A model generated the notes under the pieces. It saw nothing but the letters and a program-made list of their open reading frames with translations. It was not told where the DNA came from and did not search any database. The position numbers and the translations under genes are program-made. Source: Nitrospirota bacterium (lineage in GTDB: Bacteria; Nitrospirota; Thermodesulfovibrionia; Thermodesulfovibrionales; Magnetobacteriaceae). Taken from it: 64,000 bases of DNA. The stretch lies in contig JADFXD010000003.1 of assembly GCA_015233725.1 (NCBI GenBank), positions 1-64,000 of the forward strand. Direction: 5' to 3'. Shown here piece by piece: positions 11,014 to 61,633 of the stretch (position 1 is the first letter of the stretch; every line of letters starts with the position of its first letter).

Positions 11014-11142
11014 ACATTCTCCGAGAAATCTATTATATTCTAAATCACCAGTAAAACCGGCCTGAGTATCCTGATTATCTTATTGCTCAAAACGGCTAAA
11101 ATCAAGGCAATATACATCCGCTGCCTTAAAGCTTGCACAGGA

Positions 11143-11219
11143 AGGGCTCAAGGGGACTGCTCCCCTTGCAGGGGGGTCTAGGGGGGGCGGAGCCGCCCAC
11201 TATTTTCTTCTTTTTTTTA
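11143..11219 (+). repeat. Interspersed double-hairpin element, class I
   Basis: caaggggactgctccccttg hairpin, gggggcggagccgcc hairpin, pyrimidine tail. Confidence 0.85.
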
Positions 11220-11222
11220 TAT

Positions 11223-12380
11223 TCATAGTTTGGCGATTTCGGATGCGATCTTAGCGGCGTCTGCATCGATCGTTGACTCATTACTGATGACGATGGTCTT
11301 TACGTTAAATAGCGCCTTTAGATCGGAGATAAAGCCATCTGGTACCTCAGATGCCGTATTGAGGGCAAAGACCACCGTGTCGTACTTAAACTGGGCGTAT
11401 AGCTCAGGCAACACATCGTAGCTCCCCAGGAAGGTCGCAATCCCCCTGGCCTCAAGAAATTCCCTTGCCGCCTGTTGCTGTACCAGGAACCTGACCCCAA
11501 CGCCAAAGCGCTCAATCAGCGCCCTTGCCACCGCCAGCACCCTTAACAACACGTCATAGCCCTCCATTTGTGGCACCGTCACGTAGTAGATGACCTTGAC
11601 GGAGGCATCGTTGTATGCCTTTTGATACACCGAGGCATTGATCTCCCGCAAGTGGGGTTGTGTGCTTATGAGCTCAATGACGCCTTTGAGGGTGAAGTCC
11701 TTACCCGCATCCGTTAAGACATCGTAGAGACGGTTCATGAATTCGAGGTCGGAGGGGGTATCCACCGATATCCTGTGTCTTACGCGGTAGAACACCTCTT
11801 CATCTCTGAAGCTAAGACGTTTTACGTGAGCAAACCTTTCGGGATAGACGCCTTGAACGTAGACGGGGAAGTGGTGCTCTCTGAGGTGAGGCGTATCCGA
11901 TAGTTTATCGGCAAGGGCCCACATCCACCGCCTTGCAACCAGGATGCCCTCATGTATTGGATACACACCGTTGATCGGTTCAAAGACGACGTAGCCGGCA
12001 TCCTCGACATCCCTGAGGGCGCCAACTAGCAGGTCTATGGTCAGTGGATTGAGCAGCGGACAATCGCCACTTGCAAGGACACAGATATCGGCCTCATAGA
12101 GCGCTGCGGCTGCCGTAAGCCTGCCCACCACGTCATTTACATCCCCGTCGTAGATAAATAGCTCAAGGGCGTGTTCCTGGGCAAACCCTCTCAATTCCTC
12201 GCTCTCTGCCTCGCCTGGTGCGCATATGACGACCTGGTCAACCAAACCGCATTCCCTCAACCTGTGGGACACCCACGTAAGGAGCATCTTGCCCCCGATT
12301 TGCCTAAGATGTTTCCGGGGCAGCCGGGTCGACGTCAGTCTTACAGGCACAAATGCCACTGTCCTGCCCTTGACGCTCAC
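11223..12380 (-). CDS. Cytidylyltransferase (SpsF/PseF-like) with an extra C-terminal domain
   Basis: N-terminal VRLTSTRLPRKHLRQIGGKMLLTWV...ASGDCPLLNP; located with pseC and pseB. Confidence 0.75.
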   Translation of the reverse strand: MSVKGRTVAFVPVRLTSTRLPRKHLRQIGGKMLLTWVSHRLRECGLVDQVVICAPGEAESEELRGFAQEHALELFIYDGDVNDVVGRLTAAAALYEADICVLASGDCPLLNPLTIDLLVGALRDVEDAGYVVFEPINGVYPIHEGILVARRWMWALADKLSDTPHLREHHFPVYVQGVYPERFAHVKRLSFRDEEVFYRVRHRISVDTPSDLEFMNRLYDVLTDAGKDFTLKGVIELISTQPHLREINASVYQKAYNDASVKVIYYVTVPQMEGYDVLLRVLAVARALIERFGVGVRFLVQQQAAREFLEARGIATFLGSYDVLPELYAQFKYDTVVFALNTASEVPDGFISDLKALFNVKTIVISNESTIDADAAKIASEIAKL

Positions 12381-13618
12381 GCCGCTACCCCTGCTGCCAT
12401 TACCGCATAGACCCTCTCTATGACATCCCCCACCTGTGACTCAGACAGCGACGGGTAGATCGGTAGGCTTATCTCCCGCTGGTAGAAGTCCTCTGCTATG
12501 GGACACAGACCCCTATCGTAGCCCATTGCCCTATAGAAGGGGTGTTGATAGACCGGCACATAGTGTACGGCGACGCCAACACCGGCATCCCTTAATCCGT
12601 CGATCACTTGCGCCTTTTTTTCCTTATACCCGTCCTTGAGCCTTATAAAATAGAGGTGCCAGGCGCTTTGTGCGTAGTCTCTCTCCGGTGGGGTATAGAA
12701 ATATGGATTATTGTGAAATGCCTCGCTATAGGTCTCTGCAATATGTCGTCTCTTCTGAATAAACCCCTCGAGCTTACCCAACTGAGACCGGCCTAGTGCT
12801 GCCTGAAAGTCCGTCATGATGTAGTTGTATCCCAGATGGTGCATCTCATACAGCCAGGGTTCGTTGTCTTTTGGCATGTCTCTGTTGATCCCGTGCTGCC
12901 TAAACGACCTGAGTCTGTCATACAATGCCCTGTCGTTAGTCAACACTGCCCCCCCCTCCCCTGTTGTTATCGCCTTTACGGGGTGGAAGCTCAACACCGA
13001 CATGTGCGCGTGCAGACAGCAGCCAACGCTCCTGTATGCGTTGACGCTATTGAGGGGCGTGTCGTTTGATCGGATTCGTTCTTTTCCGCTGCAGGTCGCA
13101 CCTGCCTCCTTACAGTGGCGGGGTTTGTACCTGGCGCCAAGGGCATGGCAGGCATCCTCAACGACAGTGAGACCGTGTCTCTGAGCCAACTCAAACACCC
13201 CCTCATTGTCTACCGGATGGCCGGCAAAGGCAACGGGCACGATCAGCCTTGTCTTATCGGTGATCAGGGGAGCAATCCCTGATAAGTCAATGTTGCCGGT
13301 ATCGGGTTCAATGTCCGCAAAGACCGGTCTTGCCCCCAGATACAGTCCGGCATTGGCCGTTGCCACAAATGTTGTAGGGCTCGTGATAAACTCATCCCCC
13401 ACTTCCACTCCGGCGGCAAAATATGCACCGTGCAAGGCGGAAGTCCCGGAGTTAAACACCACCGCATAAGAGGCGCCTACACTGGCAGCAAGGCCCTCTT
13501 CAAATGCCTCGGAGACCCTCCCCCTGGTGATAAAGTCCGAGCGTAAGACCTTCACTACCTCAGCGATGTCACCTTCATCGATAGTCTGCCTTCCATAGGT
13601 AATGCGATCTAAGGACAT
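12377..13618 (-). CDS. pseC: UDP-4-amino-4,6-dideoxy-N-acetyl-beta-L-altrosamine transaminase (PseC-like), containing an apparent 30-aa insertion
   Basis: DegT/DnrJ/EryC1 aminotransferase: VVEDACHALGARY, SFHPVKAITTGEGG, FRQHGINRD; adjacent pseB. Confidence 0.88.
   Translation of the reverse strand: MSLDRITYGRQTIDEGDIAEVVKVLRSDFITRGRVSEAFEEGLAASVGASYAVVFNSGTSALHGAYFAAGVEVGDEFITSPTTFVATANAGLYLGARPVFADIEPDTGNIDLSGIAPLITDKTRLIVPVAFAGHPVDNEGVFELAQRHGLTVVEDACHALGARYKPRHCKEAGATCSGKERIRSNDTPLNSVNAYRSVGCCLHAHMSVLSFHPVKAITTGEGGAVLTNDRALYDRLRSFRQHGINRDMPKDNEPWLYEMHHLGYNYIMTDFQAALGRSQLGKLEGFIQKRRHIAETYSEAFHNNPYFYTPPERDYAQSAWHLYFIRLKDGYKEKKAQVIDGLRDAGVGVAVHYVPVYQHPFYRAMGYDRGLCPIAEDFYQREISLPIYPSLSESQVGDVIERVYAVMAAGVAA
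13028..13117. repeat. Class II palindromic element carried in frame inside pseC
   Basis: ttcttttccgctgcaggtcgcacctgcctccttac matches the intergenic element ttctttttcgctccaggtcgcacctggcccccttat at 38335-38369; encodes HCKEAGATCSGKERIRSNDTPLNSVNAYRS. Confidence 0.65.
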
Positions 13619-21242: not shown

Positions 21243-21352
21243 GGAAAAGGGAAAAGACAAGAAGGGGGCGGCGCTGCTTCTTTTGCGCTCCAGGACGCTC
21301 CTGGCGCCCCCTTTAGAACCCCCTGCAAGGGCACCATGCCCTTGAGCTCGAT
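21241..21352 (-). repeat. Composite interspersed element (class II hairpin next to class I hairpin)
   Basis: cgctccaggacgctcctggcg followed by ctgcaagggcaccatgcccttgag. Confidence 0.75.
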
Positions 21353-22508: not shown

Positions 22509-25500
22509 ATGATACGGGATTGTATATCTGGAAGGTTAAGGCGTACCATAGTGGCCAGGGCGTTATGGATCGGGATTTTGTTAATAATTGGTATTGTTTC
22601 TCCCGCTATAAGCGAGGCCACCAACTATAACTTGAATGTAAGCAATTCGCCATCAACAGGCGGTACTATAACTAGCTCGCCTACCGGCATTAACTGTGGG
22701 TCTACTTGCACCCATAGTTATTCTAGTGGTACTAACGTAACCCTAACCGAAACTCCGGCTGGTGTATGCGTTTTTTCAAACTGGACTAGTGGTAGCACAG
22801 TCCTTGGCACTTCACCCACAGTGTCCATTGCTATGAGTGCTGCCAAGACTGTCGTGGCCAATTACACATCGTGTACACCGTACACCTTGAATGTAAGCGA
22901 CTCGCCATCGGCAGGCGGTAGTGTAACAAGTACGGATGGTCACATTAGCTGTGGAGCTACTTGCAGCTATGCTTCTTATTCGGGTACTGCCAGCGTAACC
23001 CTGACCGCAGTGCCGGCTACAGGATACACCTTTTCAGGTTGGACTGGTGTCCCTGGTGGGGCTTGTACAGGGACTTCAACCACATGTACCTTTAACATGA
23101 CCAGTAGTAACCAGAACGTTATAGCCAATTTTACTGGAATCTTGTACGGCTTGACGGTAACTAACTCGCCATCGGCAGGCGGTAGTGTAACAAGTACGGA
23201 TGGTCACATTAGCTGTGGAGCTACTTGCAGCTATGCTTCTTATTCGGGTACTGCCAGCGTAACCCTGACCGCAGCTCCGGCTGCAGGATACTCCTTTGCA
23301 GGTTGGAGTGGTGTCCCTGGTGGGGCTTGTTCAGGGACTTCAACCACATGTACCTTTAGCATAACCAATAGTAACCAGAATATCACAGCCAATTTTAATG
23401 CAATGTACACCTTGACGGTTAGCAACTCGCCATCGGCAGGCGGTACTGTAACAAGTTCGGATAGTCACATCAGCTGTGGAACTACTTGCAGCTATGCCTC
23501 TTATTCGGCCGCTGCCAGCGTAACCCTAACCGCAGCTGTGGCTACAGGATACACCTTTGCAAATTGGAGTGGTGTCCCTGGTGGGGCCTGTACAGGGACT
23601 TCAACCTCATGTACCTTTAGCATGGGCACTAGTAACCAGAATGTCACAGCCAATTATACTGCAGTAGCGCCCCCATACGCCTCCCCCTCCAACATAACGC
23701 AGTATTGCTCCAAGCCGCCATTTATTGCGGGCAGCGTTCCACCCAATATAATGATACTGCTCGATAACTCCGGCAGTATGATTCAAAATCCAGCTTACCC
23801 TGATGGCGGGGGGGCGTGTGCCTCAGGCGCTACCTGCTGGTGTCAATCCTCAACCAGTCCCTGCAACGACTTTAATCCAACTCTCCTGTACTTTGGCCTG
23901 TTTGACCCTACCTATTGGTACAGTTACTCTGGTGGCGGCACATCAGGGTCTAGTTCCACTGGTAGTTGTTGTGTTAATGACAAGTTCTCCCCAACTGTCA
24001 CAAAGACCACACGCGCAAAGACCGCAACGGAGTGGGACGGCAACTTCCTAAACTGGCTGACGATGAGGAGGATCGATGTGGCAAAGGCCGTCCTCACCGG
24101 CGGCAAGGTCATGACTACCTCAATTTACTCTACCTTCACCGCTGAACCTGCCGGTTACGGTAGAGTTTTTACCGATGATGGTACTGCCAATATCTATAAG
24201 AGTATATGTTATCCTGCAAACTACGTTGGAAACTCCCCCACCGGAACCCCATCCTACACCAATACTGGCCACGATTGTACCCTCGCCCTTAGCGCTCCAA
24301 CATTAGGTACCCTGACTACGTCAACTGGAGGCACTCTTAGCGGAACTTACTACTATAAGGTATCTGCATGTGATGCCAACGGCGCTTGCAGCGTTGCCTC
24401 AAACGAAAACCACCTCTCCAGCCTTTCTAGTAATAAGGTAAACCTTACATGGAATGCTGTCACCGGGGCAGTTAAATACAGGGTCTGGCGTGGCACAACC
24501 TCTGGTAGTGAAAACCAATACTATGACGTTACCACTGGTACACCTTTGAGCACGTCCTTGACTGATACCGGTGGCCTTACCTTTACCGCAGGCACACCGC
24601 CAACGCCAATAACCTTTAATTATGAAAGCCTAAGTGGATCAGCTATTTCAAATATACCCGCTTTCTACGATAGCGGAGCTGGCAGTAGCAGTTTTAACTG
24701 GAGGGTACAGGCAAAGGTTGTCACTCCTTTTGGCGTTGTACAGGAGATCGGCAATAAGGCAAGATTTGGCCTGGCTGGCTATAACAATAACCAGGGCGGA
24801 AATATCGTGGTTCCTATAGGCAACAACAATTATACAACCGTTGTCAACGCCATAAATAACGTGACTCCAGCAAACTGGACGCCCCTTTCTGAAGCCCTGT
24901 GGTCTATAGTTGGATACTTTGCCCATACATCTACATCTACATTATTGGGAATTAATCCCACAACCGCTAACTCCACCTCGGGGCCGCTGTATACTTCAGG
25001 GGATTATCCAACCACCGCCGCAACTGACCCATACAACAATTTCACTGACTCAAACAACGCCTCTGTCTATGCCCCATGCGTCAAGAGCTATGTGCTGCTG
25101 ATAACAGATGGCAATCCTACCTATGATGGCAGCCTACCTGCGGCTCTGACTACATATGTAAGAGGCAAGACGGCATACAACTGCGAGCCTTACGCTACGT
25201 CGGCAACGTCATCGTCAACTTGTGGCAACGGCACCGATTGTGCTTGTCCTGCGGCCGGCCCTTTTGTGGCCTCTACGATCTGGGAAGATGGAGCTGGAGC
25301 CACAGGCGGGCTTGAGGATGTGGCTTACTATATGCACACCACTGACCTCAGAAGCGATCTCGTAGGTAGCCAGACGATAGATTTATATTCTATCTTTGCC
25401 TTTGGAAGTGGCGCCACACTCCTTCAATATGCGGCCATTAACGGCAGCTTTGTCTACAGCTCTACCCACACAAGCCCCAGCATCACAGCGCCCTACGCCG

Positions 25501-27986
25501 ATTGGACCAATGATACGACCAACTATGTCCCCAATAATTACTTTGAAGCCTCCGACGGATTTGCCTTACAGACATCCCTGAGGGCGATACTCCAAACCAT
25601 CATAAAAAAAGCAGCATCAGGCACAGCGGCCTCCGTCCTGGGTGAAAAGACAAGGGAAGGCTCAAGCCTCTTACAGGCGATGTTCTATCCAAGCCAGGAC
25701 TTTGACATCTCAAACCCGCCAGGTACCATCACCCTATCGTGGCTTGGCTATCTCGATAGCCTCTGGTACTATGAAGACACCACTAATGGTATCTCCAACA
25801 TGCGGGAGGATACCGTAAACGACGACATCCTGAACCTGCAGAACGATAATGTCATCAGCTTTGACTTCGTGAACAATCAGGTGGTTGTTCATAGCTGGCA
25901 GGATACAAATGGAGACGGTACGCCCGATGTTGCCCTTCCAGACAAGTTGATTGATGACGTGGCGCTGATATGGGAGGCTGGAAAGATACTCTTTCAGAGG
26001 GACACCTCCGCAAGACCAAGAAAGATATTTGTAAATGACAACTCTACCGCTTATCCAAAATCACCGACTGCTACCACCTGCGGCGGTGGTAACTTTGTGG
26101 CCTTTTCAACGGCCAACAAGGCCTGCTTTAGCAGCTACCTGGGGGCAGACCTCAACAACGATGGCACTGTAAACTCCTTTGATTCCACACAGGCAGACAA
26201 GCTCATTAACTACATAATCGGTACCGACTACCCTGAGTACAGAGGCAGGACGCTGCCCTTGAACAACCCCGTCAATGCCTCAGTGACAGGTACATGGAAA
26301 TTGGGGGATATCATATACTCGACCCCTGCGGTCGTAACGTATAGCAACACATTTAGCGATTACAGCGTTGTCTATGTGGGAGCAAACGACGGAATGTTGC
26401 ATGCCTTTAAGGTCGGTAAGGTAAGCACCACAGGGTTATCGGGTACATCAAAGTCTCAATTAACACTTGGCAGCAAAGACAGCATCGCCTTAGGGGATGA
26501 GCTGTGGGGATTTATACCTCAAAACATCCTTCCGTATCTGAGGTATTATGCCGACCCCAATTACTGTCACAGCTACATGATAGACCTCAGCCCCTATGTC
26601 TATACCTATGGCAGCAACAAAATCCTGATCGGCGGCATGAGGCTTGGCGGGGGCTGCGGAGGGACGACCTCAACCCTCAATCCACCGGCAGACACATGCA
26701 CTACCCCAACCGCTTCCTCCAATTATCCAACAAGTCCCTCCTCGTGTGTTGGGATGTCCTCGTACTTCGCCCTCGACGTCAAGGACCCAAATAACCCGAA
26801 ACTGCTGTGGGAGTTTGCCGATCCATCCCTTAAGTTCAGCTTCTCAGGTCCGGCGGTGATAAACATCAATAACACCAGATTTGCGATGTTCCTCTCCGGT
26901 CCCAGTGACTATAGTGGTAACTCCAACCAGAACCTCAAGGTGTTTGTCCTAAAGCTCAACACGGATAACACTATCAATACGGTCTACACCAAGGATATGG
27001 GAGCCTCTTATGCCAACAGCTTTGGAGGCCGATTGTTTACAAAGGGACTTGACCTCAACGAGGACGGCAATACGGATTATGTGTTCTTTGGCTATTCAAA
27101 GTGTACAAATTGCACAACATCTCCTACTTATCCTCAATGGGGTGGAGGTATCTTTAAGGTATACATAAATGGCGCCGACCCCACACAGTGGGTATATAAC
27201 GAGTATGTCAACTTCGGCAATGCAAACGGCTTTCCAATCACCACAAAGATCGGCATTGACAAGTGTTTCGACAAGTACTACTTGTATTTCACCTCCGGCA
27301 GATACTTCACGTCAACCGAAATGTACAATACAAGTACCGGACCGGTAACAAACAAGTCCGATATAGTGGCGGGTGTCCCATTTACATGTACCTATAACAA
27401 CGTCTGTACCCCTGCCAGCATTAACATGCCAACTGTACCAACACCACCACCATCACCATTAACAGCAGCACAAAGAATAACGCAGGCTAACACAAATGCC
27501 ACTGGCGTCTGCAGTAATATCAATCCTAGTTCTATGGCCAACGCGGGCTGGTACGTGGCCCTTGACCCGTACGCGGCGGCAAACACGACGGCGAATCCGC
27601 CAACCCCTGCTTATTACATGGAGCGCGGCGTAACCGATCCGGTAACCACGGGGGCAAACTATGTGATGTTTGTAACCGCAACGCCATCGGCTGATATATG
27701 CTCGTTCTCAGGCACCTCGCGCATATGGGCGTTTAATTGCGCCACGGGCGGGATGGTAACTAACAGTACATGTTCTGGTAAAACGGTTAATCCGTCGACA
27801 GTCAAGGGGACGTTGCTAATGCAGCTCTCTACGGCGGCAGTAAATCAGGTTAATCTAAAGAATACCTTTACGGGCGCTGGAGCTGTGCTGTCTACCCCTC
27901 CTACATCGGGTATGCCGCCTCCCAATCCACCACCGATCACGCCATCCGGCACAAGCGATAGAGTCATTCACTGGCTCGAGAAATAG
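22509..27986 (+). CDS. PilY1-like pilus-associated adhesin with InlB-type repeats and VWA-like domain (copy A)
   Basis: Signal sequence MIRDCISGRLRRTIVARALWIGILLIIGIVSPAISEA; repeats YTLTVSNSPSAGGTVTSS...; MIDAS ILLDNSGSM; PilY1 propeller VVYVGANDGMLHAF, WGFIPQNILPYLRYY; DLNEDGNTDYVFFG. Confidence 0.9.
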   Translation: MIRDCISGRLRRTIVARALWIGILLIIGIVSPAISEATNYNLNVSNSPSTGGTITSSPTGINCGSTCTHSYSSGTNVTLTETPAGVCVFSNWTSGSTVLGTSPTVSIAMSAAKTVVANYTSCTPYTLNVSDSPSAGGSVTSTDGHISCGATCSYASYSGTASVTLTAVPATGYTFSGWTGVPGGACTGTSTTCTFNMTSSNQNVIANFTGILYGLTVTNSPSAGGSVTSTDGHISCGATCSYASYSGTASVTLTAAPAAGYSFAGWSGVPGGACSGTSTTCTFSITNSNQNITANFNAMYTLTVSNSPSAGGTVTSSDSHISCGTTCSYASYSAAASVTLTAAVATGYTFANWSGVPGGACTGTSTSCTFSMGTSNQNVTANYTAVAPPYASPSNITQYCSKPPFIAGSVPPNIMILLDNSGSMIQNPAYPDGGGACASGATCWCQSSTSPCNDFNPTLLYFGLFDPTYWYSYSGGGTSGSSSTGSCCVNDKFSPTVTKTTRAKTATEWDGNFLNWLTMRRIDVAKAVLTGGKVMTTSIYSTFTAEPAGYGRVFTDDGTANIYKSICYPANYVGNSPTGTPSYTNTGHDCTLALSAPTLGTLTTSTGGTLSGTYYYKVSACDANGACSVASNENHLSSLSSNKVNLTWNAVTGAVKYRVWRGTTSGSENQYYDVTTGTPLSTSLTDTGGLTFTAGTPPTPITFNYESLSGSAISNIPAFYDSGAGSSSFNWRVQAKVVTPFGVVQEIGNKARFGLAGYNNNQGGNIVVPIGNNNYTTVVNAINNVTPANWTPLSEALWSIVGYFAHTSTSTLLGINPTTANSTSGPLYTSGDYPTTAATDPYNNFTDSNNASVYAPCVKSYVLLITDGNPTYDGSLPAALTTYVRGKTAYNCEPYATSATSSSTCGNGTDCACPAAGPFVASTIWEDGAGATGGLEDVAYYMHTTDLRSDLVGSQTIDLYSIFAFGSGATLLQYAAINGSFVYSSTHTSPSITAPYADWTNDTTNYVPNNYFEASDGFALQTSLRAILQTIIKKAASGTAASVLGEKTREGSSLLQAMFYPSQDFDISNPPGTITLSWLGYLDSLWYYEDTTNGISNMREDTVNDDILNLQNDNVISFDFVNNQVVVHSWQDTNGDGTPDVALPDKLIDDVALIWEAGKILFQRDTSARPRKIFVNDNSTAYPKSPTATTCGGGNFVAFSTANKACFSSYLGADLNNDGTVNSFDSTQADKLINYIIGTDYPEYRGRTLPLNNPVNASVTGTWKLGDIIYSTPAVVTYSNTFSDYSVVYVGANDGMLHAFKVGKVSTTGLSGTSKSQLTLGSKDSIALGDELWGFIPQNILPYLRYYADPNYCHSYMIDLSPYVYTYGSNKILIGGMRLGGGCGGTTSTLNPPADTCTTPTASSNYPTSPSSCVGMSSYFALDVKDPNNPKLLWEFADPSLKFSFSGPAVININNTRFAMFLSGPSDYSGNSNQNLKVFVLKLNTDNTINTVYTKDMGASYANSFGGRLFTKGLDLNEDGNTDYVFFGYSKCTNCTTSPTYPQWGGGIFKVYINGADPTQWVYNEYVNFGNANGFPITTKIGIDKCFDKYYLYFTSGRYFTSTEMYNTSTGPVTNKSDIVAGVPFTCTYNNVCTPASINMPTVPTPPPSPLTAAQRITQANTNATGVCSNINPSSMANAGWYVALDPYAAANTTANPPTPAYYMERGVTDPVTTGANYVMFVTATPSADICSFSGTSRIWAFNCATGGMVTNSTCSGKTVNPSTVKGTLLMQLSTAAVNQVNLKNTFTGAGAVLSTPPTSGMPPPNPPPITPSGTSDRVIHWLEK
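22880..23660 (+). repeat. Tandem InlB-like repeats in PilY1-A
   Basis: Blocks at about 22900 and 23164 are almost identical at nucleotide level (264-nt period); a third is more diverged. Confidence 0.85.
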
Positions 27987-29925: not shown

Positions 29926-32900
29926 ATGCTATGGATAGGGATACTATTAATCGTTGGGATTGTCTTTCCCGCTATCAGTGAGGCCAACAAGACCTTAGGC
30001 GTAGTCCTGTCACCATCAACGGCCGGTACTATAGCTGTTACGGTCGCTGCTGTTAGTAAGACTGCTTGCGGAGTGGGGGGTAATTCAAGTCCTTGCAGCT
30101 ACGCCACGGCAAACAGTGATAACATAGTTCTAACCGTAACGCCGGCTACCGGATACACCTTTTCAGGTTGGTCTGGGGCCCCTACTGGGGCTTGTACTGG
30201 GACTTCAACCACATGTTCCTTTGGTATGGGCAATGCGTCATGGAATGTAACGGCCACCTTTACAGTGGTGACGACTTACACCCTGACTGTAAGCAAATCG
30301 CCAGCAGGAGGCGGTACTGTAGCAAGCGCGGATGGCTTCATTAGCTGTGGAACTACCTGCACCCATTCTTATTTGGGCACTGATAGCGTAAGCCTAACCG
30401 CAACTCCTGTAGCTGGATACACCTTTTCAAGTTGGTCCGGGGCTCCTGGTGGGGCTTGTACAGGGGCCTCAAACACATGTTCCTTTAGCATGAGCAGTTC
30501 GTCTCAGTCTGTCACGGCCAATTTTACAGTCTCTACGGCTCCAACAACCACCTTGAACCTAACCGTGGCCTCAGCATCAACATACGGTAATGTAACGAGC
30601 TCGCCTACCGGTATTAACTGCGGAAACGGTGGAGCTGTTTGCAGTTATGCCTTTCCTCAAAATACTGCCATAACCCTGACCGCAAATCCGGCTACCGGAT
30701 ACTCTTTTTCAAGTTGGTCTTCTGGTTGTACGCCGGTAACAGGGTCTCCGACCCAGTGCAACATTAATACGGGCACCTCAGCGAGCCTGTCTGTCACGGC
30801 CGCCTTTACAGCCTCCACAATACCTCCGACCACTTGTACACTACCCACGACGACTATATCTACTACGACGACAACGACCTCAACTATCGTAGGCGCGGCC
30901 TACTGCGCGCAACCGCCCTTTATACCACAGTCGTTAAAGCCAAACCTCTTGCTGATGCTGGATAACTCCTTCAGCATGTATGACCCCGCCTACTACAGCA
31001 CTACGTCCTACAACAACTCTGCATCGGGGATATATCCAGGCTATGACAACTCGTATAACAATAGCAACACATACATAGGCTACTACACACCAACACAGTT
31101 GTATGAGGCAACAGGCGGGACGACCTTCGCAAACGACGGTCAATGCTCGCACTTCACAACCTACTCAGGCACCTTACCCAACGCGGCATGTACATACATC
31201 AATACGAGTTACCTGTGCCTGACCCTCAACGCTGGCTCGACGGATGTCACACTCTTTAGGGCGAGCGGGAACTTCCTGAACTGGCTGGCCGCCTCCAAGA
31301 TGGACATCCAGAAGCAGGTGCTCACCGGAGGCAAGTACGACAGCACCTATCAAATGCTCGTCGGTGAGACAAGGGGTTGGAACGGCATGATGTATCTCAA
31401 GAGTGTCAATACGACTCCAGCCGTTACATTTGGCGTGCGCGGTCCAAGTAATGGAAAGTACCCGGGCTTTGGAAGCTCGGATGGTGGAACAGCGAGAATT
31501 GATGTAATGGTAGGAACCTTTAACTATACCAGTTGTATGACTGCCGTTAATTATTGGCTCAATGGCGGTGCCTTTGGTCAAGCAAAACAATCAATACTTG
31601 ACTGTTTTAATGACCCCACTGGTGGCGCAGATGCAACACGACCCATCTTTAATCACGTTACGCAGTCGTGTTGGGGCTGTAGCTCCCCAACATGTTTGGC
31701 ATCCGATATGGGCAATGGAGATAGTTCAAGGATGGAGAACGACTGTGAACGCTACTATGGCTCGCTTACACCAGTCAATACTGTGCCCACCTATGCCAAT
31801 GCCAACATCTTGGCTTCAATTTGCGCTATAAGCCCAAATTCCAGTGTACCTTATGTTGGCGATTGCTATAAGACCGGTGGTCCTTGTGTCATCGGTGCTC
31901 ATAATGGCAGTGCCTGTGATACCTGTGTTAATACAGGGATCGCTGACTACTGCAATGGCATGTCTAACTCTGCCGTAGTGGACCCAACAGGGATTGCGCT
32001 TTTGGGTGCCAGTCCTACTCGTTCTTCTTCGATGCCGGCATTTTTCATGGCTGGTGGGATTTTGACGCAGCTTGGCTCTCCGATAAAGACCTACCAGGTC
32101 AAGGTCGATCAGACAGTGCTGCCAACAGGGCTTATCCACGACTTCTATAACCTGATAAAGTTTGGCGTCATGGTATTTAACACAGACGGCTCCGCCTCAG
32201 AGTGTGTGGCCAATGCCACGACAAGCCAAATACCCTGCCCATCAGGGACAAACCAAGATGGCGGCAAGATCATCTCCTACATCAACCCAAGCGACGACTC
32301 TACCGTCCTTGCCGCGGCCAAACAACCCCTGATCGACAGCGTAAACGCGATAACGGCCTCCACCTGGACGCCTTACGCCGAGGCCTTCTATAACGCGATA
32401 GGCTATTTCGCCAGCAACGCCAGCATGCGCCTTAACACCACGGACTTTGACCCAACGATCAATCAGCCCGTAAACTACACCTGCAGACAGAACAACATCC
32501 TGCTCGTCACCGACGGCGTCTCTACGGCAGACCAAAACCCAACCGTAAAGGCCCTGGCCGTCCCCCCGGGCAGCCCTACACACAGCCCCGACGGCGATGA
32601 CGACTCCAACACTAATAGCTGCATGTCCTACAGCGGCAGCACATACCTGGACGACCTCGCGTGGCTCGCCCATAACAAAAAGATCACGGACTTTACACAG
32701 ACCCCAACAACGGCGGCAGACACCATCACCACCTACACGGTCTTTAACGGAGAGGACAACGGCAGGACGGATGAGTGCAGCCCCGTGGTGCAATTGCAGA
32801 ATACGGCCACAAACGGCGGCGGCACCTATCAAAACGCAGGCAACTCCGCCGGGTTGCAGACTGCCCTGAGGGCCGCGTTTCTGTCCGTAGCGGCAAAGGC

Positions 32901-35175
32901 GGCATCAGGGACGGCGGCCTCCGTGTTGGGCGAAAAGGCAAGGGAAGGTTCAAACATCCTCCAGGCGGTGTTTTATCCTAACAAGCTCTTTAATCTCACA
33001 TCCCCCTCAACCACTATAACCCGCGCGTGGCTTGGTTATCTCAATAGCCTCTGGTTCTATGAAGACAGCGTAAACAATATAGCCAACATCCGTGAGGACA
33101 CCATAAACGACGACATCCTGGACCTAAGGACCGATAATGTCATCAGCTTTGACTTCGTCAACAATCAACTGGTAGTACATAGCTGGCAGGATACAAATGG
33201 AGACGGCACCCCCGACGTCGCCCTTCCCGACAAGACCCTCGACGACGTAAAACTGATATGGGAGGGCGGAAAGATACTCTTTCAGAGGAACCTCACCACA
33301 AGACCAAGAAAGATATTCGTAAATGACAGCAGCACCTCGTATCCCAAGAGCTCCGCTGCCAACACCTGTAGCAGCGGTAACCTGGTGACCTTCACAACAA
33401 CCAACAAGACCTGCTTTAGCAGCTACCTCGGGACAGACCTAAACAACGACGGCGTTGTAAACGCCACTGATACCGCCCTGGTCGACCCGTTCATTAACTA
33501 CGTCAATGGTACCGACACCTCACCATTTAGAACCAGGACGCTGCCGTTGACAAACCCCGTCGACCCCACAATCTCAAACACCTGGAAACTGGGCGATATC
33601 ATATACTCAACCCCCCAGATTGTAACGTACAACAACACCTTCAGCGATTACACCGTTGCCTATGTGGGCGCCAACGACGGTATGTTACATGCCTTTAAGG
33701 TCGGGAAGATAGGCTCAATGGGGCTGACCGGCACCGCGAAGGCTCAGATTACAGTGGGCAAGGATAACTCTATGCTGGGGGATGAGCTGTGGGCCTTTAT
33801 ACCTCAAAACGCCCTCCCGTATCTCAGATATTATGCCGACCCCAATTACTGTCACTCCTACATAGTAGACCTTAGCCCCTACCTGTATACCTATGGCAGC
33901 AATAAAATCCTGATCGGCGGCATGAGGCTTGGCGGTGGCTGCGGAGGTACCTCAACCGTCAATCCACCAACAGATACGTGCCCTAACCCAAACTCCTCCT
34001 CGTGTGTGGGGATGTCCTCGTACTTTGCCCTTGACGTCAAGGACCCAAATCACCCCAAACTGCTGTGGGAATTTACCGATCCAGGCCTCAAGTTTACATT
34101 TTCAGGCCCGGCGGTTGTAAACATCAGTAACACCAGGTTTGTGGTCTTCCTCTCCGGCCCAAATGACTACAACGGCAACTCTAACCAGAACCTCAAGGTG
34201 TTTATACTAAAGCTCAATACAGATAACACAATCGATACGGTCTATACCAAGGATATGGGGGCATCGTACGCCAACAGTTTTGGAGGCCGGTTGTTTACAA
34301 GGGGACTCGACCTCAACGAGGACGGCAATACGGATTATGTGTTCTTTGGCTATTCAAAGTACATAAACACCGTAAATGGTTATCCTCAATGGGGCGGAGG
34401 CGTAGTAAAGCTATACACAAACAGTACCGACCCCACACAATGGGTGTATGACAATGGCTATGTCGCCTTCTCGGACCCGACCGGTTTTCCAGTTACGGCA
34501 CAGGTTGCCTTTGACAAGTGCTTCGACACATACTATCTGTACTTCACCTCCGGCAAATACTTTACACCAACCGAGCTGTACAACACAGGCACCGGACCGG
34601 TAACGTTGAAGTCCGATATAATCGCGGGTGTCCCACTTATGTGCGACTATCAAAACAACTGTACCCCTACCAGTATCAACGTACAGGCTACCGGCACGAA
34701 TTCACTGTCATCGGTCAGCACCGTGTGTACCAACCTCGCGAATTCTGCTAACCACGCAAACTCGGCCTGGTACAGGTCGCTCGACCCGATATCACTGCCC
34801 TACTACATGGAGCGTGGCGTAACCGATCCGGTGGTCACCGGAGGTAACTACGTGATGTTTGTAACGGCAAAACCCTCCAATGATGTCTGCTCGTTTTCAG
34901 GCACCTCGCGCGTATGGGCGTTTAACTGTGCAACGGGCGGGGCCGTGACCAACACCACGTGTGCTGGCAAATCGGTTAATACATCGTTGCTCCAGGGGAC
35001 GATGCTATTGCAGCTCTCCACGGCGGCAATCAACCAGGTCAATCTGAAAAATACCTTTGCCAGCTCTCCCGGCTTGATATCTACCCCTTCCAGCTCAGGT
35101 ATGCCGCCTCCCAATCCACCACCGATTACGAAGTTTGGCGCCGGTAACAAGATCATCCATTGGCTGGAAAAATAG
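29887..35175 (+). CDS. PilY1-like pilus-associated adhesin (copy B); true start probably ATG 29822, out of frame in this assembly
   Basis: Signal core MLWIGILLIVGIVFPAISEA; MLDNSFSMYD; VAYVGANDGMLHAF; strongly similar to PilY1-A in the C-terminal half. Confidence 0.88.
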   Translation: MPSGRCRQGVAVRMLWIGILLIVGIVFPAISEANKTLGVVLSPSTAGTIAVTVAAVSKTACGVGGNSSPCSYATANSDNIVLTVTPATGYTFSGWSGAPTGACTGTSTTCSFGMGNASWNVTATFTVVTTYTLTVSKSPAGGGTVASADGFISCGTTCTHSYLGTDSVSLTATPVAGYTFSSWSGAPGGACTGASNTCSFSMSSSSQSVTANFTVSTAPTTTLNLTVASASTYGNVTSSPTGINCGNGGAVCSYAFPQNTAITLTANPATGYSFSSWSSGCTPVTGSPTQCNINTGTSASLSVTAAFTASTIPPTTCTLPTTTISTTTTTTSTIVGAAYCAQPPFIPQSLKPNLLLMLDNSFSMYDPAYYSTTSYNNSASGIYPGYDNSYNNSNTYIGYYTPTQLYEATGGTTFANDGQCSHFTTYSGTLPNAACTYINTSYLCLTLNAGSTDVTLFRASGNFLNWLAASKMDIQKQVLTGGKYDSTYQMLVGETRGWNGMMYLKSVNTTPAVTFGVRGPSNGKYPGFGSSDGGTARIDVMVGTFNYTSCMTAVNYWLNGGAFGQAKQSILDCFNDPTGGADATRPIFNHVTQSCWGCSSPTCLASDMGNGDSSRMENDCERYYGSLTPVNTVPTYANANILASICAISPNSSVPYVGDCYKTGGPCVIGAHNGSACDTCVNTGIADYCNGMSNSAVVDPTGIALLGASPTRSSSMPAFFMAGGILTQLGSPIKTYQVKVDQTVLPTGLIHDFYNLIKFGVMVFNTDGSASECVANATTSQIPCPSGTNQDGGKIISYINPSDDSTVLAAAKQPLIDSVNAITASTWTPYAEAFYNAIGYFASNASMRLNTTDFDPTINQPVNYTCRQNNILLVTDGVSTADQNPTVKALAVPPGSPTHSPDGDDDSNTNSCMSYSGSTYLDDLAWLAHNKKITDFTQTPTTAADTITTYTVFNGEDNGRTDECSPVVQLQNTATNGGGTYQNAGNSAGLQTALRAAFLSVAAKAASGTAASVLGEKAREGSNILQAVFYPNKLFNLTSPSTTITRAWLGYLNSLWFYEDSVNNIANIREDTINDDILDLRTDNVISFDFVNNQLVVHSWQDTNGDGTPDVALPDKTLDDVKLIWEGGKILFQRNLTTRPRKIFVNDSSTSYPKSSAANTCSSGNLVTFTTTNKTCFSSYLGTDLNNDGVVNATDTALVDPFINYVNGTDTSPFRTRTLPLTNPVDPTISNTWKLGDIIYSTPQIVTYNNTFSDYTVAYVGANDGMLHAFKVGKIGSMGLTGTAKAQITVGKDNSMLGDELWAFIPQNALPYLRYYADPNYCHSYIVDLSPYLYTYGSNKILIGGMRLGGGCGGTSTVNPPTDTCPNPNSSSCVGMSSYFALDVKDPNHPKLLWEFTDPGLKFTFSGPAVVNISNTRFVVFLSGPNDYNGNSNQNLKVFILKLNTDNTIDTVYTKDMGASYANSFGGRLFTRGLDLNEDGNTDYVFFGYSKYINTVNGYPQWGGGVVKLYTNSTDPTQWVYDNGYVAFSDPTGFPVTAQVAFDKCFDTYYLYFTSGKYFTPTELYNTGTGPVTLKSDIIAGVPLMCDYQNNCTPTSINVQATGTNSLSSVSTVCTNLANSANHANSAWYRSLDPISLPYYMERGVTDPVVTGGNYVMFVTAKPSNDVCSFSGTSRVWAFNCATGGAVTNTTCAGKSVNTSLLQGTMLLQLSTAAINQVNLKNTFASSPGLISTPSSSGMPPPNPPPITKFGAGNKIIHWLEK

Positions 35176-35188
35176 CGAAGAATGTATA

Positions 35189-35280
35189 AGTGTGAACAAG
35201 ATATGATGGGGTCAAGGGGACTTGTCCCCTTGCAGGAGGGTCTGAGGGGGGGCGGAGCCGCCCCCTTCTTCTCTCTTAAG
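35189..35280 (+). repeat. Interspersed double-hairpin element, class I
   Basis: gtgaacaagatatgatggggtcaaggggacttgtccccttgcaggagggtctgagggggggcggagccgcccccttcttctctctta. Confidence 0.9.
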
Positions 35281-38295: not shown

Positions 38296-38368
38296 GAAGA
38301 AAAGAAAGAAAAAGAAAAAAGGGGTGGCTCCGCTTCTTTTTCGCTCCAGGTCGCACCTGGCCCCCTTA
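38296..38368. repeat. Interspersed hairpin element, class II
   Basis: aagaaaagaaagaaaaagaaaaaaggggtggctccgcttctttttcgctccaggtcgcacctggcccccttatt. Confidence 0.85.
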
Positions 38369-43899: not shown

Positions 43900-43998
43900 C
43901 ACTGTGAACAAGATAAGATGGGGTCAAGGGGGCTGGCCCCCTTGCAGGGGGGGTCGAGGGGGGGGCAGCGCCGCCCCCCTTTTTTCTTCTTCTCTTAG
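43900..43998 (+). repeat. Interspersed double-hairpin element, class I
   Basis: gtgaacaagataagatggggtcaagggggctggcccccttgcagggggggtcgaggggggggcagcgccgcccccctttttt. Confidence 0.92.
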
Positions 43999-48159: not shown

Positions 48160-48240
48160 GGCAAAAAAAAAGGGGGGGTGGCGCTGTTTCTTTACCGCTC
48201 CAGGACGCTCCTGGCCCCCCTTTCTTTCTTCTCTTCTGGT
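48160..48240. repeat. Interspersed hairpin element, class II
   Basis: aaaaaaaaagggggggtggcgctgtttctttaccgctccaggacgctcctggccccccttt. Confidence 0.85.
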
Positions 48241-48263
48241 AGGGCAGGTACTTATCACAGAAA
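48217..48263 (+). repeat. 47-bp perfect inverted match to window positions 1-47
   Basis: cccctttctttcttctcttctggtagggcaggtacttatcacagaaa is the reverse complement of positions 1-47. Confidence 0.95.
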
Positions 48264-49298: not shown

Positions 49299-49328
49299 TG
49301 TATATAATTAATTATGGGCAGGTACTTA
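49299..49328 (+). repeat. Left copy of 30-bp perfect inverted repeat flanking the histidine kinase
   Basis: tgtatataattaattatgggcaggtactta. Confidence 0.97.
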
Positions 49329-52078: not shown

Positions 52079-52108
52079 TAAGTACCTGCCCATAATTAAT
52101 TATATACA
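52079..52108 (-). repeat. Right copy of 30-bp perfect inverted repeat flanking the histidine kinase
   Basis: taagtacctgcccataattaattatataca. Confidence 0.97.
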
Positions 52109-55101: not shown

Positions 55102-55223
55102 GAAGAAAGAAAAAAAAGGGGAGCGGCGCTGCCTTCTTTACCGCTCAAGGCACGCTCCTGGTTCTTTGCCGCTCAAGGCACGCTCCTGGTTCTTTACCGC
55201 CCTCTTTTTTTCTTCTTCTCTCT
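55100..55223. repeat. Class II element with internal 28-bp tandem duplication
   Basis: ttctttaccgctcaaggcacgctcctggttctttgccgctcaaggcacgctcctggttctttaccgcc between purine and pyrimidine arms. Confidence 0.85.
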
Positions 55224-59612: not shown

Positions 59613-59702
59613 GTAGGATTGAGCATTATGGGGTCAAGGGCACTGGTGCCCTTGCAGGGGGGGTCGAGGGGGGGGCAGCGCCGCCCCCCTTCTTTGCCTT
59701 TG
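59613..59702 (+). repeat. Interspersed double-hairpin element, class I, between fliQ and fliR
   Basis: taggattgagcattatggggtcaagggcactggtgcccttgcagggggggtcgaggggggggcagcgccgccccccttcttt. Confidence 0.92.
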
Positions 59703-61544: not shown

Positions 61545-61633
61545 AAGGGAAAGAAAGAAGGGGGGCGGCTCCGCCCCCCCCTCAGCCCCCCCCTGCAAGG
61601 GCACCAGTGCCCTTGACCCCTTAATGCTCAGGG
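61545..61633 (-). repeat. Interspersed double-hairpin element, class I, between flhB and flhA
   Basis: aaagaaggggggcggctccgcccccccctcagcccccccctgcaagggcaccagtgcccttgaccccttaatgctca. Confidence 0.92.

Follow-up and report, generated by a model that had tools for sequence, protein, structure and literature searches.

Does the pseC gene of a Candidatus Magnetobacterium genome carry a mobile DNA hairpin within its reading frame, and if so, how large is the insertion and to what kind of element does it belong? The gene lies in a 64,000-nucleotide stretch, hereafter the window, whose closest loci are those of M. casense MYR-1 (L061), nMYbin3 (L062) and MYbinv3 (L063). A previous reading, made from the letters alone (the sequence-only reading), had proposed that a palindromic repeat entered the gene in frame and added 90 nt, or 30 residues, to a conserved enzyme.

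The insertion in pseC

The pseC ORF (12377..13618, minus strand) encodes a 413-residue UDP-4-amino-4,6-dideoxy-N-acetyl-beta-L-altrosamine transaminase: it matches the profile TIGR03588 with 455 bits, above the cut-off, its best solved relatives are the H. pylori PseC structures 2fn6/2fnu, and it is a single-copy gene, with one match in its own genome. The hairpin is located at 13079-13105 inside this frame, as had been claimed.

To size the insertion we aligned the protein with about 40 sequences of the PseC type taken from elsewhere. The nearest relative, the PseC of nMYbin3 (83% identical), reads ALGARYRSK-DTSHTGPATYTN-VGASLH where the window protein reads ALGARYKPR-HCKEAGATCSGKERIRSN-DTPLNSVNAYRS-VGCCLH, a net gain of 18 residues. 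The insertion relative to nMYbin3 is thus 54 nt long (13068..13121, with boundaries uncertain by a few nucleotides) and contributes the approximately 18 residues HCKEAGATCSGKERIRSN. The remaining 12 residues, DTPLNSVNAYRS (13028..13066, minus strand), align with DTSHTGPATYTN of nMYbin3, are not repeat-derived and belong to a native length-variable loop, which is equal or shorter in all genus members; the figure of 30 residues resulted from comparison with distant PseCs only. Orthologues therefore do possess a comparable segment as far as the variable 12-residue loop is concerned, but the 54-nt repeat part is absent from the PseC of all three genus relatives (M. casense, nMYbin3 and MYbinv3). 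These relatives provide the insertion-free allele, which makes the insert specific to the window lineage and upholds the idea of a mobile hairpin turned protein-coding.

The insertion is composed of two elements of 27 nt each, one nested in the other (27 + 27 = 54 nt). Element A (13079..13105, plus strand; TTCTTTTCCGCTGCAGGTCGCACCTGC) consists of the head TTCTTTTCCGCT followed by the 6-bp hairpin GCAGGT-CGC-ACCTGC (13091..13105, plus strand), which is supported by folding and by stem covariation. It interrupts element B (GATCGGATTCG...CTCCTTACAGTSGCKGG) between GATTCG and CTCC, leaving a left part GATCGGATTCG (13068..13078, plus strand) and a right part CTCCTTACAGTGGCGG (13106..13121, plus strand). 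The hairpin element of the sequence-only reading is hence real, but it is not a lone element, as it sits within a member of a second family. At least four loci (pseC, L115:16902, L125:898 and L158:4753) have A in B at the identical internal point, and this fixed point may mean that the 54-nt composite moves as one unit and not in two steps; in L140 and L151, A interrupts B elsewhere, at CAG/TCG.

We modelled the structure of the window PseC with AlphaFold2 (16 sequences, mean pLDDT 85.8). The confidence drops below a pLDDT of 50 in residues 169-193 and 243-262, and the former, covering the greater part of the insert and native loop, are modelled as a loop flanked by confidently predicted regions. 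The best match of the model in the PDB is H. pylori PseC (2fnu, TM 0.92 by target length), and the lysine of the FHPVK motif, invariant across the PseC alignment, is retained. The fold is predicted to be kept, the insert forming a disordered loop, so that an active PseC with a floppy loop is likely and the activity would be preserved despite the insert. In a Thermodesulfovibrionales MAG (L065) the PseC loop has another short extra segment with the repeat-like peptide QPSAISHQPET, and this loop may accept insertions in general.

Two dispersed, nested repeat families and a covarying hairpin

Both parts of the insert recur elsewhere in the genome. The core CAGGTCGCACCTG is found twice in the window (0.06 expected) and 68 times genome-wide, compared to 0 in the control. 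Using the pattern TTCTTTNNYGCTNNAGGNNNNNCCT with one mismatch allowed, A matches 377 times in its own 3.3-Mb genome and 51, 21 and 3 times in M. casense, nMYbin3 (56% complete) and MYbinv3, respectively; outside the genus there are 0-2 per genome, and the control likewise yields 0-2. Scanning the A flanks revealed B, a 27-nt family with the consensus GATCGGATTCGCTCCTTACAGTCGCTGG and without a clear hairpin, which has 207 matches in its own genome, 13 in M. casense, 1 in nMYbin3, 4 in MYbinv3 and 0 outside the genus. Both families thin out in the sister species; A and B are restricted to the genus and have expanded recently. An Rfam scan of the 64-kb window gave no match, the commonest form of A had no exact match in 2.9 million viral contigs, and a search of the published literature on repeats in Magnetobacterium returned nothing relevant.

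The A unit comprises a conserved pyrimidine-rich head, TTCTTTNNYGCT, and then the 6-bp hairpin, with TTCTTT and CCTGG at its ends in nearly all units. Within the 12-nt head, positions 7-8 (NN) are hypervariable and their neighbours nearly fixed. DNA folding gives 6 bp and a 3-nt loop for both A variants alike (z -2.6 to -3.1), the pseC copy folding at -5.5 kcal/mol (z -2.59). Over 28 distinct units, hand-chosen as well-matching copies together with one from M. casense, a choice that favours pairing, 96% of the stem pair cells are paired and three of the six pairs show both-sided changes, a covariation score reached in none of 500 shuffles. Double changes of this kind, from C-G to G-C in the basal pair and from A-T to T-A in the top pair, recur frequently across all 178 units. 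One of them distinguishes the pseC copy from the near-identical intergenic copy at 38334..38360 (plus strand), which has a CCAGGT/ACCTGG stem and confirms the compensated change described in the sequence-only reading.

This intergenic copy lies within a GC-rich hairpin element, C, as do those at 21278..21304 and 48188..48214 (both plus strand), and a tandem pair of a 28-nt A variant, TTCTTTNCCGCTCAAGGCACGCTCCTGG, is found between genes at 55134..55189 (plus strand). Element C (GGGGGGCGGCTCCGCCCCCC...CAAGGGCACCAGTGCCCTTGACCCC) is an intergenic double hairpin with several window copies (1775-1855, 11142-11209, 35206-35273, 43918-43985, 59628-59695 and 61550-61630); A occupies the loop of its first hairpin at many places, and a further element, D, its second hairpin at some. 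D (TTATTGCCAGTGCGGCTCGCACC) is about 24-25 nt long, with an A-like head and a different hairpin; it matches 41 times in its own genome and in none of the searched genomes from beyond the genus. A variant, E, was matched 12 times across the sequence sampled, chiefly within genes. The D/E units (L130:8578, L163:11358, L141:2694-2740 and L113:1-75, of 24-25 nt, with pyrimidine-rich heads and other hairpins) are often in genes and also nested in B or C; they repeat every 24 nt in genes (L141, L130, L165) and every 25 nt in L113, where a contig ends.

Other repeats were observed alongside these. In L007, L009, L013 and L029 a longer repeat containing GGGTGCATCAAAAAGTCATGGGTAGCTTGGTCAAAGAAAG upstream of A carries an A copy, and is possibly a larger miniature element ferrying it. 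Two perfect inverted repeats in the window, of 47 nt (1-47 / 48217-48263) and 30 nt (49299-49328 / 52079-52108), link intergenic sites that lie far apart; they contain GGTACTTAT and ATAATTAATTATATACA and represent a further dispersed motif. Tandem 261-264-nt repeats (22592-23665 and 30102-30720) and long segments duplicated at about 7.2-kb spacing with 77-86% identity (25607-27911 / 32895-35100) apparently represent large paralogous repeat proteins.

The properties of A invite comparison with REPs and REPINs, palindromes of 20-40 bp in hundreds of copies, some of them intragenic and encoding extra residues (PMC3733652, PMC3116915). A could accordingly belong to the REP type and, as the GTAG REPs/REPINs do, depend on a RAYT (Y1) transposase for its mobility, since its size, its hairpin, its hundreds of copies and the intragenic copies that add residues fit such elements, in which intragenic copies are occasional (PMC3733652). 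However, neither end of A bears GTAG or CGTC, the tags by which those REP super-families are defined (PMC3733652), and this sets it apart from them; it has instead a 12-nt unpaired head, and a 3-nt loop. A also occurs singly or in direct 27-nt head-to-tail arrays of up to 12 units, not in the mainly inverted doublets of REPs. Nor is there an association with RAYT: no intact Y1 transposase was found in the four genus genomes, whose assemblies are incomplete, the own genome having only a truncated Y1_Tnp fragment with a stop and the other three none, and neither A nor B occurs in the sequence surrounding this fragment. We consequently reject Y1/RAYT as the driver, since only this relic remains, and consider the REP explanation unlikely. 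In one array (L161:2-325), 12 head-to-tail A units open a 426-residue reading frame as PGASWSGKE x12, the contig starting inside the array.

In-frame insertions and their empty alleles

We assessed how often the elements enter genes in a census of 1.34 Mb (40% of the genome, window included), in which a simple codon-usage ORF finder predicted 1049 genes, so that gene counts are approximate; 0.8 Mb of M. casense sequence was also examined. Of the 190 A units in this part, 84 are in coding sequence, and about half of A units sit in the loop of C. After separating free from composite copies by a flank rule, 73 of 97 free A units fall in predicted coding sequence, most of the others being C composites missed by the rule. 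Altogether 66 of the 1049 genes, about 6% of the predicted genes in the sampled part, have a free A or B inside. The 28-nt A variant is in coding sequence in only 1 of 21 cases (Fisher p = 2.5e-4 against all A units), as predicted by the loss of frame-breaking insertions, the comparison being partly confounded by the presence of this variant mainly in intergenic C composites.

Clean intragenic insertions measure 27, 54 or 81 nt when compared with the empty alleles of the sister species. Empty alleles for A are found at pseC and at genes for a MidA-like methyltransferase, a sugar transferase and a P-type ATPase. The best-defined site is that of the MidA-like methyltransferase (L184:8513), where 54 nt correspond to two A units with no target duplication; across the L184 methyltransferase region the difference is 81 nt, two A and one B, within coding sequence. 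Net insertions of B are 27, 27, 27 and 54 nt in coding sequence, the last a tandem B pair, and 44 and 52 nt between genes; clean 27-nt insertions of B alone include L154:15598 (in a P-type ATPase gene), L141:907 and L143:14709. Recognised domains are among the targets: Methyltransf_28 (L184), PAS (L158) and, in the L154 P-type ATPase, the haloacid dehalogenase domain. In-frame A copies are also present in the independently assembled M. casense.

One intragenic A copy is common to the window species and M. casense (L158:11676-11702 and L200:10344). It differs between the two by a compensated stem change that alters two residues, which suggests a possible constraint on the hairpin as such where it lies in a gene.

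Such a preserved stem would be expected if intragenic copies were domesticated and useful at the protein or RNA level, for instance as flexible linkers or regulatory mRNA hairpins. The same could be said of the orientation of A in genes: 33 of 46 clusters are antisense and encode hydrophilic peptides (QERPGAVKN, PGASWSGKE), a preference (p = 0.005) that the purging of harmful hydrophobic inserts predicts equally well. Moreover, the host genes are unrelated, the insertions are mostly missing in the sister species, and the PseC insert falls in a loop predicted by AlphaFold2 to be disordered. Domestication therefore appears improbable, and A and B would be near-neutral passengers rather than useful parts.

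Less probable still is that the pseC insert reflects an ordinary loop of varying length, or a tandem repeat that expanded on the spot, and not a mobile element. It is true that the PseC loop varies within the genus and beyond, and that A can follow itself with a 27-nt period up to 12 times; coding tandem repeats, the STRR type among them, resemble A in this respect, with 27-nt periods in reading frames at some loci. Slippage alone, however, is unable to seed a new locus, whereas A and B are also dispersed singly over dozens of unrelated genes and intergenic sites, with clean empty sites in sister species. The dispersal of the copies and the empty sites thus rule out an ordinary loop for the 54 nt; for the remaining 12 residues this explanation holds.

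Finally, although the assembly has 168 contigs, is 88.6% complete and has some contigs ending in A arrays, an assembly or binning artefact is hardly credible, as single 27-nt units lie in otherwise collinear genes with the frame kept, the L158/L200 sites are shared across independent assemblies, and the A family is present in M. casense as well.

Proposed origin and relation to known repeats

We conclude that the pseC insert is very probably the footprint of very small selfish DNA elements spreading in Candidatus Magnetobacterium. Their copies, presumably made by a transposition-like process, land within genes as well as in intergenic DNA. As 27 nt make up nine codons and most reading frames of A lack a stop, an intragenic insertion adds only nine residues, which would often be tolerated in loops; PseC gained its 18 residues in this way, through A within B, in a loop already variable in length. 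As to the copying itself, we tentatively favour a trans-acting enzyme working on single-stranded hairpin DNA; template switching at replication forks is a possible but somewhat less probable route, and the process may also be a different one. Reverse transcriptase was rejected as the driver, no RVT_1 being present in the incomplete assembly of this genome. A bolder proposal, which we regard as doubtful, is that these units and their 24-25-nt relatives with a similar head are codon-sized mobile cassettes, among the smallest mobile elements known, which reside in several per cent of one lineage's genes, are copied without RAYT or reverse transcriptase, and have a length selected as a multiple of three.

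The closest parallel in working is offered by the palindromic elements of Rickettsia and Wolbachia (RPE and WPE; Ogata et al.), which insert in frame (PMC10969869, PMC4224334), and the analogy with Rickettsia drawn in the sequence-only reading is apt. Both systems consist of palindromic mobile repeats that add peptides in frame to many unrelated genes, which are not evidently destroyed; A and B likewise have insertion-free orthologues, and the mobilising enzyme is unclear in both. The differences are that the first-reported RPEs measure about 150 nt and come from intracellular alphaproteobacteria, while the present unit spans 27 nt (9 aa), belongs to a Nitrospirota genome, and forms nested units and head-to-tail arrays. 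By length, the 27-nt unit is outside the RPE-1-type range of about 100-150 nt.

In size, A is closer to the small dispersed repeats SDR1-8 of Nostoc, which, as reportedly described by Elhai et al. in 2008, are 21-27 nt long, form hairpins with compensatory changes, are nested in themselves and in other repeats, and are limited to one clade. They are said to lie chiefly outside genes, and no transposase is known for them. By this description A resembles them in its dispersed short units and compensated hairpin, and in its nesting in B and in C; it differs in that free copies are mostly in genes and that two families are exactly nine codons long. Passages of PMC3116915, PMC4390886 and PMC2884548 cite this cyanobacterial work. 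A and B are therefore akin to RPE/WPE in working and to SDRs in size and nesting, and we place them in none of RPE/WPE, SDR and REP.

Rickettsia and Wolbachia are the best-known hosts of palindromic elements that sit in frame, and this distant lineage is another. It has hundreds of far smaller units, which belong to two unrelated 27-nt families, occur nested and in arrays, and have empty alleles in the sister species. This system makes directly testable both how tiny repeats are copied and whether they supply new loops to proteins.
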